A stretch of DNA of 64,000 nt from Rhizobium sp. 18065. Its GTDB lineage: Bacteria > Pseudomonadota > Alphaproteobacteria > Rhizobiales > Rhizobiaceae. Numbering within the stretch: position 1 is the stretch's first letter; every line of letters starts with the position of its first letter. The position numbers and the translations under genes are program-made. This document shows, in pieces, positions 35,644 through 61,436 of this stretch. The DNA lies in contig NZ_CACSJP010000006.1 in NCBI RefSeq assembly GCF_902706095.1, positions 62,001 to 126,000 on the forward strand, read 5' to 3'. The notes beneath the pieces were generated by a model. The model did no database searches. It worked only from the letters and a program-made list of their open reading frames with translations, and was not told where the DNA came from.

Positions 35644-36618
35644 GTGAGGGATACGGAGATGCTGAACTGGAGTTTAAGATCCAGCGGAGCCGGGCGTGAA
35701 GCGCCTTCGGTCGGGGAAGCGAGCGGCCTGGGATCCGGTCTGCCGACCCAACCCCAACCACCGAAGAAACCCAAGGTCGCCTTGGCTCTTGGCGGGGGAG
35801 CGGCCCGCGGATGGGCCCATATCGGCGTTCTGCGTGCCCTTGACGAGGAAGGCATCGAAGTCGGCATGATTGCCGGCACGTCGATCGGTGCGCTGGTCGG
35901 CGGTTGCTATCTCGCTGGCAAACTGGACGAGCTTGAAGTTTTCGCCCGCTCGCTGACCATGCGCCGCATTGCCTCCCTGCTCGACCTGACAATCGGCGGC
36001 GGCGGCCTGCTCGGCGGCATGCGCCTGACCAAGCGGATGCAGGAACATCTGCAGGGGCTGATGATCGAGGATCTGCCCAAGCCATTCGTGGCGGTGGCAT
36101 CGGAACTCAACAGCGGTCATGAAGTGTGGATCGACGGCGGACACCTGATCACGGCGTTGCGGGCATCGTACGCCCTGCCCGGCATTTTCGAGCCTGTGCG
36201 CTGTAACAATCGCACGCTGATCGATGGAGCGCTGGTCAATCCGGTACCGGTCTCTGTGTGTAGGGCGCTCGAGCAACCGATCGTCATGGCGGTCAACCTC
36301 AACTACGACCTGTTCGGCCGCTCGGCCGTGGTCAAGCATCGCGCTGGCGAACTGGTGGAAACCACCAGCGAACCCGTCCGGGATCCGAACCGCATGGGCC
36401 TGACCGGCGTCATGGTCCAGGCTTTCAATATCATCCAGGACCGGATTTCGCGGGCTCGCCTTGCCGGAGACCCGCCGGATCTGGCGCTTCATCCGCGCGT
36501 CAACGATATCGGACTTTCGGAATTTCACCGGGCTGGCGAAGCGATCGAGCGCGGTTATGCGGAAACCAAGTCCCGAATCACCGAAATTCGACGCATGCAG
36601 GAAGCAGTCGCCCGCTGA
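35644..36618 (+). CDS. Patatin-like phospholipase (RssA/YchK type)
   Basis: The protein (about 324 residues) carries the patatin fold: the oxyanion loop LALGGGAARGWAHIGVL, the serine lipase elbow GTSIGALVGG, and the catalytic Asp in IDGALVNPVPV. It is expected to be a serine acyl hydrolase of membrane lipids. It has no signal peptide. I chose the GTG at 35644, with GGAG about 12 bp upstream; ATG 35659 is also possible. It stands alone after hisI. Confidence 0.9.
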   Translation: MRDTEMLNWSLRSSGAGREAPSVGEASGLGSGLPTQPQPPKKPKVALALGGGAARGWAHIGVLRALDEEGIEVGMIAGTSIGALVGGCYLAGKLDELEVFARSLTMRRIASLLDLTIGGGGLLGGMRLTKRMQEHLQGLMIEDLPKPFVAVASELNSGHEVWIDGGHLITALRASYALPGIFEPVRCNNRTLIDGALVNPVPVSVCRALEQPIVMAVNLNYDLFGRSAVVKHRAGELVETTSEPVRDPNRMGLTGVMVQAFNIIQDRISRARLAGDPPDLALHPRVNDIGLSEFHRAGEAIERGYAETKSRITEIRRMQEAVAR

Positions 36619-36683
36619 CCGGACGGATTGCGACAGCGAGCGGCGCCTTAATCCTGCACGCAGAGGTGCATGAGAAATCCGGG

Positions 36684-36703
36684 GTAACGCTGTCGGGCGT
36701 TAC
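36684..36703. terminator. Hairpin between convergent genes
   Basis: GTAACGC and GCGTTAC form a 7-bp stem with a 6-nt loop between the patatin-like and CBS-domain genes. It lacks a T-run on either side, so termination is only suggested by its position. Confidence 0.4.
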
Positions 36704-37138
36704 TTATCCCGCAATATAAGCCTTGATCTGTTCGGCCTCAGTCTCGATCTCGCGGATGCGGGACTTTACCACGTCGCCGATCGAGATGATTCCCGACAAT
36801 TTGCCATTGTCTTCCACCGGCACGTGGCGAAAACGCCGGGCGGACATCATTTCCATCAGTTCATTGACGCTGGTGTCCTCGCGGCAACGATAGACGTTGG
36901 CGGTCATCAAGGTGGAAATCGGCTGATCAAAGGCATCACGGCCGTTCTGACCGATGGCACGCACGACATCGCGTTCCGTGAAAATCCCGACGATCCGGTT
37001 CTCCATGCCGACAACCACGACCGCACCGATCTTGTTTTCTTCCAGGATATGGGCGGCTTCACCCAGTGTGACGTTCGGACCGACAGTTACGACGTCACGG
37101 CCCTTCTGTTCGAGTATGCTTCTGGCAGATGCTGTCAT
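36704..37138 (-). CDS. CBS domain-pair protein
   Basis: The 144-residue protein is essentially two CBS motifs: TVGPNVTLGEAAHILEENK to IFTERDVVRAI, and TANVYRCREDTSVNELMEM to GIISIGDVVKSRI. CBS pairs bind adenosyl ligands such as AMP or ATP and regulate partners. No catalytic domain is attached. The ATG at 37138 has GAGGAGGA upstream; open frame continues further but without a good site. The rhomboid gene lies upstream on the same strand, about 108 bp away. Confidence 0.9.
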   Translation of the reverse strand: MTASARSILEQKGRDVVTVGPNVTLGEAAHILEENKIGAVVVVGMENRIVGIFTERDVVRAIGQNGRDAFDQPISTLMTANVYRCREDTSVNELMEMMSARRFRHVPVEDNGKLSGIISIGDVVKSRIREIETEAEQIKAYIAG

Positions 37139-37246
37139 GCTTTCCTCCTCACATTCATCACGTCTGGACTCACCGCTAGCCCGTCCCAAAGCGGCGATCC
37201 ACAAATGGTGCATGTTATTCAAGAGGAATGCAATATTTAGATATTT

Positions 37247-38008
37247 TTAGCGATTTCGCACCGATCTGCTGTAGGGATCGAAGGGGCGGAAGCAGAGGAA
37301 TCCGAACAGGAAACCACCGATATGTGCGTCCCAGGCGATCATGCCGGCATAATCTCCGAACAGTGGCAAGCCGAAGGCGACGGCGACATTGCCGAGAAAC
37401 CAGACGATGATGAAAACCCGGACCGTGCGATCGGCCAGTGCCGCCGGCACCGAAAGCAAGGGCGGCTCGATGCCGAATGCCTGCAGGTAACCGCGCTGGC
37501 GTCCACCAAAGGCAAAGCGGCAGGCTGCTCCCATGAGCGCCGAGATCACGCCGGAGGCGCCGACCATCAATGACGGCGAGCCCCAGTTGACGACAGCGTG
37601 CAGGCCCGCCCCAGCCATGGACGAAATCACCCAGAAGATAACAAAACGAACTGCCCCGATCCGGCGGTAGACCGGGGTGCCGAAGGCTGCGAGCCAGAGG
37701 CCGTTGAAAGCCAGATGTTCAAAACTGCCATGCAGCAGCGAGTAGGTCACCGGCGTCCAGATCCAGGCCAGCGTCTGGTCTGCCAGCGGATAGACATAGC
37801 GCAGCGGCGAGAAACCGAATTCAAATGCGATCCAGGCATTGGTATCTTCGCTGAAGACCAGAGCCTGCAGGGCATAGATGACACTGAGCACTGCGAGCGA
37901 CAAAAGGATGCCGCCCGGCAGGTTGAAGATCGGCACAGAGCCCTTTTGATGCGCGGTGTCGGCCGGCCCGGCTTGGGGCTCTTCGGGCGGCCCTGAATTT
38001 TCCTGCAT
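37247..38008 (-). CDS. Rhomboid-family intramembrane serine protease
   Basis: The 253-residue protein has six predicted membrane helices and rhomboid hallmarks: His residues in LLHGSFEHLAFNG, the catalytic Ser in VGASGVISALMG, and the catalytic His in WDAHIGGFLFGF. It should cleave membrane helices; the substrate is unknown. The N-terminal ~25 residues are hydrophilic and cytoplasmic. A strong terminator sits about 50 bp upstream of its ATG on the same strand (see the small-RNA entry). Confidence 0.9.
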   Translation of the reverse strand: MQENSGPPEEPQAGPADTAHQKGSVPIFNLPGGILLSLAVLSVIYALQALVFSEDTNAWIAFEFGFSPLRYVYPLADQTLAWIWTPVTYSLLHGSFEHLAFNGLWLAAFGTPVYRRIGAVRFVIFWVISSMAGAGLHAVVNWGSPSLMVGASGVISALMGAACRFAFGGRQRGYLQAFGIEPPLLSVPAALADRTVRVFIIVWFLGNVAVAFGLPLFGDYAGMIAWDAHIGGFLFGFLCFRPFDPYSRSVRNR

Positions 38009-38059
38009 CTCTGGCTCCTTGCGGCATTGCTAAGCAACCTGTTAGCCCAGACGCGCACC

Positions 38060-38090
38060 AAAAAAAAGCCACCCGGAACGTCCGAGTGGC
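38060..38090 (-). terminator. Strong orphan intrinsic terminator
   Basis: The reverse-strand 9-bp stem (GCCACTCGG/CCGGGTGGC) with loop ACGTT and eight T residues lies about 52 bp before the rhomboid start codon and does not terminate any visible gene. Confidence 0.85.
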
Positions 38091-38215
38091 TGCTGGGGCA
38101 TGCTGCGGAACCTCCGCGCGCCTCGAGTTGGTGCCGAAAGCGAACCTTCGGGAAGTGATGGCCGTTTTTGCCACAGTCCCGCCGCAGCCGCAATCTCAAC
38201 CAATCCTTAACCTTA
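38060..38215 (-). ncRNA. Candidate small RNA or leader ending in an orphan terminator upstream of the rhomboid gene
   Basis: On the reverse strand, an intrinsic terminator (stem GCCACTCGG/CCGGGTGGC, one G-T wobble, 5-nt loop, eight T) lies at 38060-38090, with no protein gene upstream on that strand. Two smaller hairpins precede it: CCGAA/TTCGG near 38145 and GCGGA/TCCGC near 38110. This layout fits a stand-alone small RNA of about 100-150 nt, or an attenuator in the 5' leader of the rhomboid gene. The 5' end is a guess. No known family is recognised. Confidence 0.45.
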
Positions 38216-38325
38216 ACCGCCGGACATAAATCGGAAAAGGCGGAACAAAACCAAGGGTCACAGCAAACGTTATGTTAACGGCTTGCCGATAATCATTTCG
38301 TAACCGCGAAATAGACAGATCGCCC

Positions 38326-38940
38326 ATGATGTATTCATCGCAGACCAGCCAGAGCAACACGATCGCCTCGCCGGGACAGCAGCGCGCCTTCCAGCGCGTC
38401 GCGGTCAGCCTGCAGGGTCGTCTTATGATGGCCGACTACGAAGAATATGTGTGCAAGGTCATCGACATGTCGCCGGGCGATGTCCGCTTCGCCTGCGCCG
38501 GCCGGCCGCGCCCGAATGAACGCATCATCGCTTACATCGACCATCTCGGCCGGATCGAAGGCACAGTCGTCAAGCTGACCGAGGACGGTTTCGTCATCTC
38601 GATCAACGCGACCGTGCGCAAGCGCGAGAAGCTTGCGGCGCAATTGACCTGGATTGCCAACAAACATGAACTCGGCCTGCCGGAAGACCGTCGCCACGAT
38701 CGTCTGACGCCGCGTAACACGCGGACGGAACTGACGCTCGAAGACGGCAAGCGCTATCCTTGCCGCCTGATGGACCTTTCGCTGTCCGGTGCCGCCGTCG
38801 ATATCGACATCCGTCCGCCGCTCGGCACAGCCGTTCGTCTGGGCAATATGCGTGGCCGTGTGGTTCGCCATTTCGCGGAAGGTGTTGCGGTAGAGTTTCT
38901 GTCGCTGCAGTCACGCGAAGCGCTTACCGAGTTTCTCTGA
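38326..38940 (+). CDS. Tandem PilZ-domain protein (c-di-GMP binding candidate)
   Basis: The 204-residue cytoplasmic protein consists of two PilZ-like halves. The C-terminal domain has the c-di-GMP motif R122-x3-R126 (RRHDR) and D150-x-S-x-x-G155 (DLSLSG). The N-terminal domain has R20-x3-R24 (RAFQR), but its second motif is DMSPG, one residue short, so it may not bind c-di-GMP. PilZ proteins of this class regulate motility or exopolysaccharide. No effector domain is visible. It starts at the double ATG 38326/38329. Confidence 0.88.
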   Translation: MMYSSQTSQSNTIASPGQQRAFQRVAVSLQGRLMMADYEEYVCKVIDMSPGDVRFACAGRPRPNERIIAYIDHLGRIEGTVVKLTEDGFVISINATVRKREKLAAQLTWIANKHELGLPEDRRHDRLTPRNTRTELTLEDGKRYPCRLMDLSLSGAAVDIDIRPPLGTAVRLGNMRGRVVRHFAEGVAVEFLSLQSREALTEFL

Positions 38941-39455
38941 TTTAATTTGCTAGTTGCCTTTGCGGCGTCAGCGGTCCCTCCGCTGGCGCCGCATGTCGTT
39001 CAAGCACGGTCCCGCATCTCGATGTACCGGCGTGTATTTTTTGCCCTCGGCAAAAAATAAATTTCTGCATCAAAATAGAACATCGCCTCACCACTTCTAT
39101 CAGATCGCCCTCAAGGCACCGATGTCACCACGGATGCGCCGACGGCAGATGTCCGACGCGGCGGCAGCGCGGTGTGATCATCTCGGAAACACCGTCAACG
39201 CACGGCATATTAAATCCCATATTTTCAACAACTTGCAGAGATTTCATCGCGAATGAAACGCATGCGGAATCCAAATTTGGCTCAAATTTGATTGGAATTT
39301 TATTCTTATTTTCTTCAAAAAATACTCAAACAATAATTAAATACATCTAAATATAAAATCGTCTTATCATCAACTTTACCTCGATTTGTACTTCGGATTT
39401 TCGCGAGAGATCAAAAACTCGATGTCATGTTGGCTCCATCACGGGGAGACAACCA
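38941..39455. other. AT-rich intergenic region before the transglutaminase-like gene
   Basis: The 515-bp stretch holds no convincing gene. After the PilZ gene there is a 13-bp stem hairpin (38962-38992, GCGGCGTCAGCGG with one wobble) without a T-run. An 11-bp perfect inverted repeat follows (39035-39059). Two copies of CAAATTTG (39272-39279, 39283-39290) are spaced 11 bp apart. The stretch from about 39250 is markedly AT-rich and ends with the promoter side of the next gene. Confidence 0.6.
38962..38992. terminator. Hairpin after the PilZ gene
   Basis: A 13-bp stem with a 5-nt loop (one G-T wobble) begins 22 bp after the PilZ stop. No T-tract follows, so factor-independent termination is only a possibility. 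Confidence 0.4.
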
Positions 39456-40067
39456 ATGACAACAAAGATAAATCTGGGTATTGGACTTCTGACCGCCGCA
39501 ATCGTCGGCTGCCTGGCAATGCCGGCTGCGGCCACATCTGCGAACATGCGCGTCATCGGCAAGGCCAATCCGCCGATCGGCCACTACGAATTCTGCAAGA
39601 CCTATAGCGGCGAATGTTCGAAAACCGGAAGCGACACTGGCCCACTAGGCCTGACCGAGCCGCTGTGGAAAGAGATCCTCGAGATCAACTACACCGTCAA
39701 CAGCCAGATCACGCCACTGACCGATATGGAGATCTATGGCGTAGAAGAACGCTGGGCCTATCCGCGCACCGTCGGCGACTGCGAGGACTACGCGCTTTTG
39801 AAGCGCAAGATGCTGATCGACAAGGGCGTGGATCCATCCAACCTGCTGATCACCGTCGTCCTCCAACCGAATGGTGAAGGCCACGCCGTGCTGACGATCA
39901 GAACCGATCATGGCGACTTCGTACTGGACAACATGCGCAACAAGGTGCTGCTCTGGTCCGACACCGAATATACCTATCTGAAGCGCCAGTCGTCTGAAGA
40001 TCCCGCGCGTTGGGTCAAGCTTCAGGATGGACGCGCGAGCGTTGTCGGCAGCGTCTCGTCCAACTAG
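39456..40067 (+). CDS. Bacterial transglutaminase-like cysteine peptidase
   Basis: This 203-residue exported protein belongs to the BTLCP (PF06035-type) family, to which the Pseudomonas periplasmic protease LapG belongs. It has a signal-type N-terminus (GIGLLTAAIVGCLAMPAAA), the catalytic Cys in TVGDCEDYALLK, the His in GEGHAVLTI, and the Asp in FVLDNM. Such enzymes release adhesins or process surface proteins under c-di-GMP control; the adjacent PilZ gene is suggestive but not proof. A strong terminator follows. Confidence 0.9.
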   Translation: MTTKINLGIGLLTAAIVGCLAMPAAATSANMRVIGKANPPIGHYEFCKTYSGECSKTGSDTGPLGLTEPLWKEILEINYTVNSQITPLTDMEIYGVEERWAYPRTVGDCEDYALLKRKMLIDKGVDPSNLLITVVLQPNGEGHAVLTIRTDHGDFVLDNMRNKVLLWSDTEYTYLKRQSSEDPARWVKLQDGRASVVGSVSSN

Positions 40068-40144
40068 CGCGCACCTGCCAGCAACTCGTTTTACAATCTG
40101 GCCCGGTCTGTCCCCCGCATACCCGTCCCCCGACCGGAGCCACT

Positions 40145-40184
40145 GAGCCGGTCCCGTCCAACCGGGACCGGCTCTCCTTTTGTC
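40145..40184 (+). terminator. Rho-independent terminator of the transglutaminase-like gene
   Basis: A perfect 12-bp stem (GAGCCGGTCCCG/CGGGACCGGCTC) with a 6-nt loop is followed by a T-rich run, 77 bp beyond the stop codon. Confidence 0.85.
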
Positions 40185-40304
40185 ACGCCGCCACCAATGA
40201 TCATTTACGCAAGATTAACCATAATCGCCGAACGTCTGGCCTTCATGATATGGAATCGGCGCTCGCACATCTTGTTGCCGTCCGCCATACAGGCGAGGTC
40301 AGGC

Positions 40305-41096
40305 ATGCAGAGCGAAACAGCCGAAACCGATCCTCACGATCACGCGCCGTTGATCTCGACACGGTTCCTGGTCGTCGCAACTTGTCTGGTGTTTTTTCTT
40401 GCCATCGCATCGGTCGCCATCAGCTATGCAGGGCGAATCTATGGCGAGCAGCTCTCCCTCGCCGGCCATAGCGGAAGCCGCGAGATCCTGACCATCACGA
40501 TTGGTCGCGACCAGCTTAGTCTTCCCACGAATACGATCCGGTTCGAACAGCAGCGCGTCAGCGGCCCTGCCGAACAGATCGACCTCTACCTGCTCTGGCC
40601 GGAAATGACGGGCTACGACAAAGGCCTGCGCCGGCGGTTCGACGATCTTGCCCAGGAAAAATCCCTGATTTTCCTTCAGATTTCCCAAAGCACCATGTCT
40701 CGCGATATGTCGGGACGGGTCGGCGCAATTTACGCACACCTTCTCGAATCCCGATCGGAACCCGGGCCTGCCGGTCTCACTCTGAAGCGCTTTGAGCGGG
40801 GCGCGGGATACGACGGCGAGGCATTGCTCACCGCCAGCCGGGTCGGAGATGACGACTACGCGGTTCGCTGCCTTTTGCCGGCAAAGGCTTCACAAGCTAC
40901 CGACGGCGACTGCCAGCGGGACATCCATGTCGGCGACGACCTGACCGTCATGTACAGGTTCTCAAGCCGCAGACTCGGCGACTGGGCGAAAATCGATCAA
41001 GCCGTTCGCAGCTATGTCGGCACGCGCGCAACGCCGGCACCCAGCGACAGCTCGCATAAAATGCGCCCGATCACGTCAACTAAAAGTTCATCATAA
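40305..41096 (+). CDS. Membrane-anchored protein of unknown function
   Basis: I do not recognise a family. The ATG at 40305 has GAGG six bases upstream, giving 263 residues; open frame continues upstream to 40197 but without a site. One N-terminal transmembrane helix (STRFLVVATCLVFFLAIASV) anchors a periplasmic domain with a mixed alpha/beta pattern (TITIGRDQLSLP, EQIDLYLLWPEM, SLIFLQISQSTMSRDM). No enzyme motif is visible. A CtrA-like half-site TTAACCAT lies at 40215-40222. It precedes a carboxypeptidase gene on the same strand, with 46 bp between them. Confidence 0.75.
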   Translation: MQSETAETDPHDHAPLISTRFLVVATCLVFFLAIASVAISYAGRIYGEQLSLAGHSGSREILTITIGRDQLSLPTNTIRFEQQRVSGPAEQIDLYLLWPEMTGYDKGLRRRFDDLAQEKSLIFLQISQSTMSRDMSGRVGAIYAHLLESRSEPGPAGLTLKRFERGAGYDGEALLTASRVGDDDYAVRCLLPAKASQATDGDCQRDIHVGDDLTVMYRFSSRRLGDWAKIDQAVRSYVGTRATPAPSDSSHKMRPITSTKSSS

Positions 41097-61311: not shown

Positions 61312-61436
61312 GCCTAGTTATCCTTTTCCGGTTGAACCTCCGCAAGGCGAACAGCATCCTCTTCGAAGATGCCACCGGGCGGAACCATCCGGATTTCTCC
61401 CGGACAATCCCAAGCCTTACGTGTGGAATGAAGCCG

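Follow-up and report, generated by a model that had tools for sequence, protein, structure and literature searches.

Which transcript ends at the strong terminator that lies on the reverse strand shortly before a rhomboid protease gene in the window, the whole stretch of 64,000 nucleotides of Rhizobium sp. 18065 DNA analysed here? From the letters alone, an initial annotation had described a textbook terminator that ends no visible gene and is preceded by two smaller hairpins, and had read the arrangement as either an independent small RNA or an attenuated leader. Of these two readings, the first is supported by our analysis and the second is disfavoured. Judged from the sequence, the element is very probably a trans-acting small RNA about 100 nt in length that is transcribed independently, running from about 38160 to the terminator at 38091-38060 and possibly under CtrA-type control. 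Synteny, a gap-free promoter block, covariation and the clean absence of the element from some loci support an independent small RNA, and the variable distance to the rhomboid gene, together with the persistence of that gene without the element, speaks against a leader.

Anatomy of the element and its promoter block

The terminator was borne out: its hairpin occupies 38091-38067 and its eight T occupy 38067-38060, the terminator scan counting the first T of this run as paired. The 9 pairs and 5-nt loop originally given are a trimmed form of the same hairpin, to which the scan assigns 11 pairs and a loop of 3 nt. Both smaller hairpins are present in the fold (about 38151-38134, and 38122-38097), and the distance of about 50 bp to the rhomboid gene is likewise confirmed, with 51 nt between the end of the T-run and the ATG at 38008. 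As a class, terminator-like sites are not enriched in 36000-40500 (6 found, 5.2 expected). The lone terminator and the two hairpins before it make up one conserved gene on the reverse strand (about 38160-38060), in which a short tail, hairpin 1, an unpaired GGCACCAACU linker, hairpin 2 and the terminator with its eight U follow each other in 5'→3' order in the RNA. Its intergenic position, its end at an intrinsic terminator and its conserved structure are those by which trans-encoded small RNAs are recognised. The 3' end is set by the T-run, and the 5' end, estimated at 38160 ± 4, is derived from promoter spacing only. All features are collected in the table below.

Table. Features of the predicted small RNA gene and its neighbours (positions of the window)
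Feature	Position	Strand	Basis
Predicted small RNA, about 100 nt	38060..38160	-	covariance model R1, 86.4 bits, sole match in own genome; the window's sequence is itself part of R1
5' unpaired segment CAUCACUUC, candidate seed	38152..38160	-	common to many, not all, members (by eye)
Hairpin 1 (CCGAAGG UUCG CUUUCGG)	38134..38151	-	fold; 4 of 6 counted pairs change on both sides
Unpaired linker (GG)CACCAACU, candidate target-pairing seed	38123..38133	-	GCAC invariant in 30 of 30 genus sequences
Hairpin 2, sequence-variable	38097..38122	-	seen in six folds
Hairpin 3, intrinsic terminator with eight U	38060..38091	-	terminator scan; 7 of 10 pairs change on both sides
Promoter box TTAAGGTTAA	38207..38216	-	exact in 58 of 59 aligned promoters; recurs at orthologous promoters
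CtrA-like site, box TTAAGGTTAA plus N7-TT	extends to 38198	-	resemblance to CtrA consensus
TTG, putative -35	38191..38193	-	59 of 59, exactly 13 nt after box
TGGCA, putative atypical -10 region	38169..38173	-	17 nt after TTG
Rhomboid protease gene, downstream neighbour	37247..38008	-	Pfam PF01694, E 2.7e-21
-10-like element, probable separate rhomboid promoter	38041..38046	-	promoter role inferred
PilZ-domain gene, divergent neighbour	38326..38940	+	Pfam PF07238, E 2.2e-17

Upstream of the RNA, 59 sequences align without a single gap over a block consisting of TTAAGGTTAA, 13 nt, TTG, 17 nt and a TGGCA-like element, in which the five letters are kept in 57 (T), 57 (G), 47 (G), 57 (C) and 59 (A) of the sequences. 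Because the 30 rows from the genus were identified by way of the box or one of its variants, its presence in them is a matter of selection. The 29 distant rows come from covariance model R1 alone, which starts downstream of the promoter block, and all 29 carry the exact box and the TTG at the same spacing. R1 itself is based on 30 non-identical sequences of the genus and has hairpins 1 and 3 as its structure. A scan for the sigma-70 consensus found no promoter in 36000-40500. According to the available part of PMC3616915, the motif that Schluter et al. took for RpoD promoters keeps only TTG, and a motif of this type would fit the promoter of the RNA.

Conservation, synteny and covariation

The initial annotation had named a lack of conservation in relatives as the observation that would speak against the element; this was examined and conservation was found. 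At the DNA level, 21 of 100 genomes (own included) were matched; they all belong to the same genus, and some of the matches are short, with at least one (G020) lying away from the locus. The rhomboid gene was matched in 35 genus genomes, of which 30 (own included) had loci that were read upstream, and the complete block of promoter box, hairpin 1, linker, hairpin 2 and terminator precedes the rhomboid gene in 22 of these. Named carriers of the element include Rhizobium sp. PDO1-076, Peteryoungia aggregata and Ciceribacter selenitireducens. One locus (L008) has the box and an R1 match and was left out of alignment A1 and the promoter count because its T-run is interrupted. The remaining eight loci retain the rhomboid gene without the RNA. 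In three of them (L006, L010 and L012) PilZ is kept as well (86% identity), the TTAAGGTTAA box and the RNA are both gone, and a GTTAACATA box beside PilZ and, by eye, the -10-like element of the rhomboid gene are retained; in L026-L030 no PilZ match was found in the flanks fetched. The eight element-less loci give no R1 match, and the 60 remaining sources give exactly one apiece, half of these sources having gone into the model. The locus appears cleanly deletable, and some genomes of the genus already do without the RNA.

In the larger of two draws, R1 matched 53 of 394 genomes of the family, in 12 of 109 genera, at E≤1e-4 with one match each; in the first draw, which shares most of its genomes with the larger one, 51 of 297 were matched at E≤0.01. 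A second match was obtained in one genome of the first draw (G226, E 0.0099). The named relatives suggest that this family is Rhizobiaceae. Matched lengths range from 92 to 113 nt. Synteny was checked in 29 fetched loci (L069-L097) of the 51 R1 matches other than the window's own, and in all 29 PilZ lies upstream and the rhomboid gene downstream of the RNA. A CBS gene lies within the fetched stretch in 26 of the 29. Also in 26 of the 29, a gene with a common N-terminus is placed between PilZ and the RNA, the one tested being PAS_5 (PF07310); the window's genus has no PAS_5 gene at this place. Outside the family, R1 gave six weak matches (E 7e-5 to 0.009), and their fetched flanks contain no match to rhomboid, PilZ or CBS; being weak and non-syntenic, these six were treated as chance and not as members. 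A single-copy RNA with one address in a dozen genera and a rigid promoter is likely to be useful to the cell.

These comparisons bear directly on the attenuator, according to which the element is the leader of the rhomboid mRNA that either ends at the terminator or reads through on a signal. The element does lie on the rhomboid strand with its T-run 51 nt before the ATG, and the two adjoin in all 29 distant loci examined. However, a leader would be expected at a constant short distance, and the spacing between terminator and rhomboid gene varies from about 23 to 313 nt over the 19 distant loci that allowed a measurement. The rhomboid gene also persists without the element in 8 of 30 genus loci, and a -10-like TA at a fixed distance past the T-run (positions 16-17, in 21 of 21 genus rows) points to a probable promoter of its own. 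Moreover, the promoter, linker and hairpins of the element are kept across genera. We therefore consider the attenuator improbable and prefer the independent small RNA.

The fold of the window's RNA is only modestly more stable than that of shuffled sequences (z -1.98, 8 of 200 shuffles as good), and the same applies to 38058-38215 (z -1.63, 13 of 200). For the 59 relatives, folding z averages -3.5 and falls below -2 in 51 of them. It is the conservation, seen in the folding z over relatives and in covarying pairing, and not the fold of the window alone, that sets the element apart from chance. The compensatory base changes that the initial annotation had proposed to look for in relatives were found in alignment A2, which comprises 60 members (58 distinct) fitted to the model structure, half of its rows being in R1. 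Here 94.9% of the cells are paired, and compensatory change on both sides was seen for 4 of 6 pairs in hairpin 1 and 7 of 10 in the terminator, giving 11 of 16 overall. No value of the five measures was equalled in 500 shuffles, and pairing drops to 33-55% when the partners are slid. The genus alignment, which was not fitted to the model, gives a weaker signal: its five pairs changed on both sides are reached by 68 of 500 shuffles and its number of further pair types by 491 of 500; the percentage paired, the cells changed on both sides and the covariation score are each reached by none of 500. RNAalifold on this alignment retains only the terminator.

With regard to the unpaired parts, the mean unpaired probability over the 59 sequences is 0.64 for the 5' segment compared with 0.43 overall. 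From CAC on, the linker reaches 0.78 compared with the same average and exceeds 0.7 in 44 of 59. The individual minimum-energy folds of these sequences are mixed, with three domains in 30, four in 20 and two in 9, and a helix ends at the linker in only 33 of 59.

The shared box, the divergent gene and the proposed action

Box sites were surveyed in 11 genomes that had all been selected for carrying the RNA. Of the 44 sites, 40 were fetched and clustered by flanking translated similarity, with one member per protein cluster named by Pfam. Four orthologous clusters hold 31 of the 40: this RNA (11 sites), a transporter region (9), ddl (5; L132, L139, L159, L166 and L170) and an M23 peptidase (6; L137, L145, L151, L160, L162 and L163). 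The rest fall into two pairs (4 sites) and 5 single sites. As read from the translations, ftsQ and ruvX appear to be among the neighbours of box sites. Upstream of ddl and the M23 peptidase, TTAAGGTTAA-N7-TT is kept in several genera. The transporter-adjacent box occurs in nine genomes (L133, L138, L140, L146, L147, L148, L149, L158 and L161) and is directly preceded by a AACGTAAACC- or AATGTAAACC-type stretch in eight of them. Genome-wide, the box shows no overall excess over its reversed control (10 vs 5 sites; 34 vs 36 in a second set), so the evidence lies in its recurrence at orthologous places.

The available part of PMC3616915 gives TAA-N7-TTAAC as the CtrA consensus of S. meliloti. Within 65 nt, a stretch with at most one mismatch to it was found at 30 of the 31 clustered sites, compared with 138 of 5000 background stretches. 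Ten of the 11 small RNA promoters come this close, as do 6 of the 9 unclustered box sites. Part of this resemblance is built in, because the box itself contains TTAA. A fairer measure is TT at exactly N7, which was observed at 21 of the 22 small RNA, ddl and M23 sites taken together; in this direction it occurs at none of the nine transporter sites and at four of the nine other box sites. From this resemblance, CtrA would be the most likely binder of the box. That the RNA represents an unlisted Rhizobiaceae family within the CtrA regulon, switched together with ddl (of the ftsQ operon) and the M23 peptidase through TTAAGGTTAA-N7-TT, is a tentative proposal that we put at somewhat below even chances. 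If true, such an RNA would add an RNA output to the rhizobial division programme, and if the box is a CtrA site, it would tie the rhizobial cell-cycle circuit to post-transcriptional control.

At the loci whose direction was read (L132, L139 and L137), the ddl and M23 genes face the opposite way from the box. For this reason, the box at the present locus may work for the RNA, for the divergent PilZ or PAS_5 gene, or for the two together. Taken further, the conserved DNA would be mainly promoter or operator of the divergent gene and the RNA a by-product with a guard terminator. The orientation of the box relative to PAS_5, which is the same as at the ddl and M23 loci read, agrees with this, as does the distance of 84-147 nt between the box and the PAS_5-like start, taken over the 26 distant loci (of 29) in which this gene is recognised. 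Nevertheless, the spacing is exact towards the RNA and loose towards the divergent gene, PilZ is kept in L006, L010 and L012 although box and RNA are gone, and the body of the RNA itself covaries, all of which makes this explanation very unlikely.

On the divergent side, GCCGTTAACATAACGTTTG lies beside PilZ at 38264-38282 (-), is kept even in the three PilZ-containing loci that lack the RNA, and is probably a PilZ promoter or operator. In other genera, the interval from the PAS_5 gene to the RNA contains an inverted repeat (TGTGCC...GGCACA in L070, L071, L072, L075 and L077; CGGCACGTCATGTGCCG upstream of the RNA in L080, L093 and L096). This repeat looks like an operator and was not seen in the window.

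Returning to the independent small RNA, we infer transcription, base pairing and control by CtrA as follows. Transcription would start near 38160 on the reverse strand and stop at the terminator at 38091-38060, leaving exposed between hairpins the linker, which reads GGCACCAACU in this genus, and the 5' tail (AUCACUUC) of many genera. One or both of these could pair with mRNAs, the layout being the usual anatomy of an mRNA-pairing RNA. As TTAAGGTTAA with N7-TT fits a CtrA-type cell-cycle box, the RNA and the ddl and M23 genes may be expressed jointly in one defined cell-cycle phase. Searching five genomes for the exact linker complement (AGTTGGTGCYG) gave 28 sites, five of which are the gene itself; the reversed control gave 60. 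Two of the contexts are each shared by a pair of genomes (L119/L125 and L105/L107), neither near the start of the frames listed, and no shared 5'-end target was recognised when the positions among the matches listed for the five genomes were read. An mRNA for a small peptide or a dual-function RNA, to which the short open frames of some members might point, is extremely improbable, since no frame is common to the six members inspected and the matched lengths vary in steps that are not multiples of three.

Comparison with known small RNAs

The initial annotation recognised no known family, and the covariance-model search that it recommended agrees for Rfam 15: no family, including Qrr, isrD, Atu_C7 and suhB, matches at its curated gathering threshold over the RNA in the window or in 10 relatives. 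The sole gathering-level match in the window is RF01815 (rpsB sRNA) at 61315-61425 (-), with 47.6 bits, and is unrelated. Atu_C7 (RF02501) is likewise a Rhizobiales small RNA with a strong terminator end and aligns weakly over its full length, but the RNA of the window scores 12.7 bits against a gathering score of 45. The suhB/MmgR family (RF00519), another rhizobial small RNA with a terminator, gives a weak same-strand match over the RNA in L084 (1493-1583, -), but with 25.3 bits against a gathering score of 41, an E-value of 0.27 and in only one of 10 sources searched. The genuine suhB genes of G170, G314, G236 and G145 lie at other loci, and the L084 match is probably due to chance, driven by the terminator. 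The RNA would be of the trans-encoded kind and outside Rfam 15, and it could be matched to no named Sinorhizobium small RNA in the parts of published main texts compared.

For the comparison with S. meliloti, the position of the locus was interpolated between proS and a tandem suhB pair, giving about 1.49 Mb (G314, G170) or 1.54 Mb (G236). The collinearity behind this interpolation is supported by cobalamin riboswitches and suggests that g112 is Sinorhizobium-like. The SmelC165 family resembles our RNA in being restricted to Rhizobiaceae and in its complete microsynteny, for which it was first taken as the ortholog. In the available parts of PMC3927594 and PMC7143759 it is described as 116 nt long and without relatives in A. 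tumefaciens, and differs by an RpoN motif and an atypical terminator stem. It was rejected as the ortholog since it lies at 910 kb and not at about 1.49 Mb, a distinction by position and not by sequence. An identification of the divergent gene as SMc00999 was likewise dropped on account of position: SMc00983/SMc00982 are placed at 954 kb in the accessible part of PMC2573895.

The portion of PMC2873474 at hand tabulates SmelC302, 306, 311, 337, 365, 378 and 381 at 1.458-1.637 Mb. A named neighbour is given there for just two, SmelC337/sm30 (beside sda) and SmelC378/sm9 (SMc02080 as upstream ORF), so one of the other candidates could be the ortholog. These candidates aside, the parts of published main texts compared, which also span PMC2245857, PMC2881028, PMC3738593, PMC4433202 and PMC2877005, give no conserved S. 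meliloti small RNA family with stated coordinates near 1.49-1.54 Mb; supplementary lists may hold the RNA, and one S. meliloti candidate list comprises 1,125 candidates according to its abstract. Our literature search found no paper joining rhomboid or PilZ with a rhizobial small RNA, and nothing related on the box letters with CtrA, Sinorhizobium or rhomboid. R1 can serve as a ready covariance model for annotation, and the RNA is a directly testable candidate.

Among small RNAs with a described role, EcpR1 (SmelC291) and GspR (SmelC775), the cell-cycle RNAs of S. meliloti, are similar in size and in their hairpins. In the available parts of PMC4414408 and PMC5928217, their reported targets are dnaA, gcrA, ctrA and cspA5, and EcpR1 is reported to be conserved in Rhizobiales with a microsyntenic locus in Rhizobiaceae. 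Their loci, divK-pleD/rpmG and SMc03844/SMc03845, differ from the one described here. Likened by description, and with a link to CtrA that consists of promoter resemblance only, our RNA may also be compared with CcnA, the Caulobacter non-coding RNA that modulates CtrA and GcrA and is tied to the CtrA circuit (PMC8959179, in the part available).
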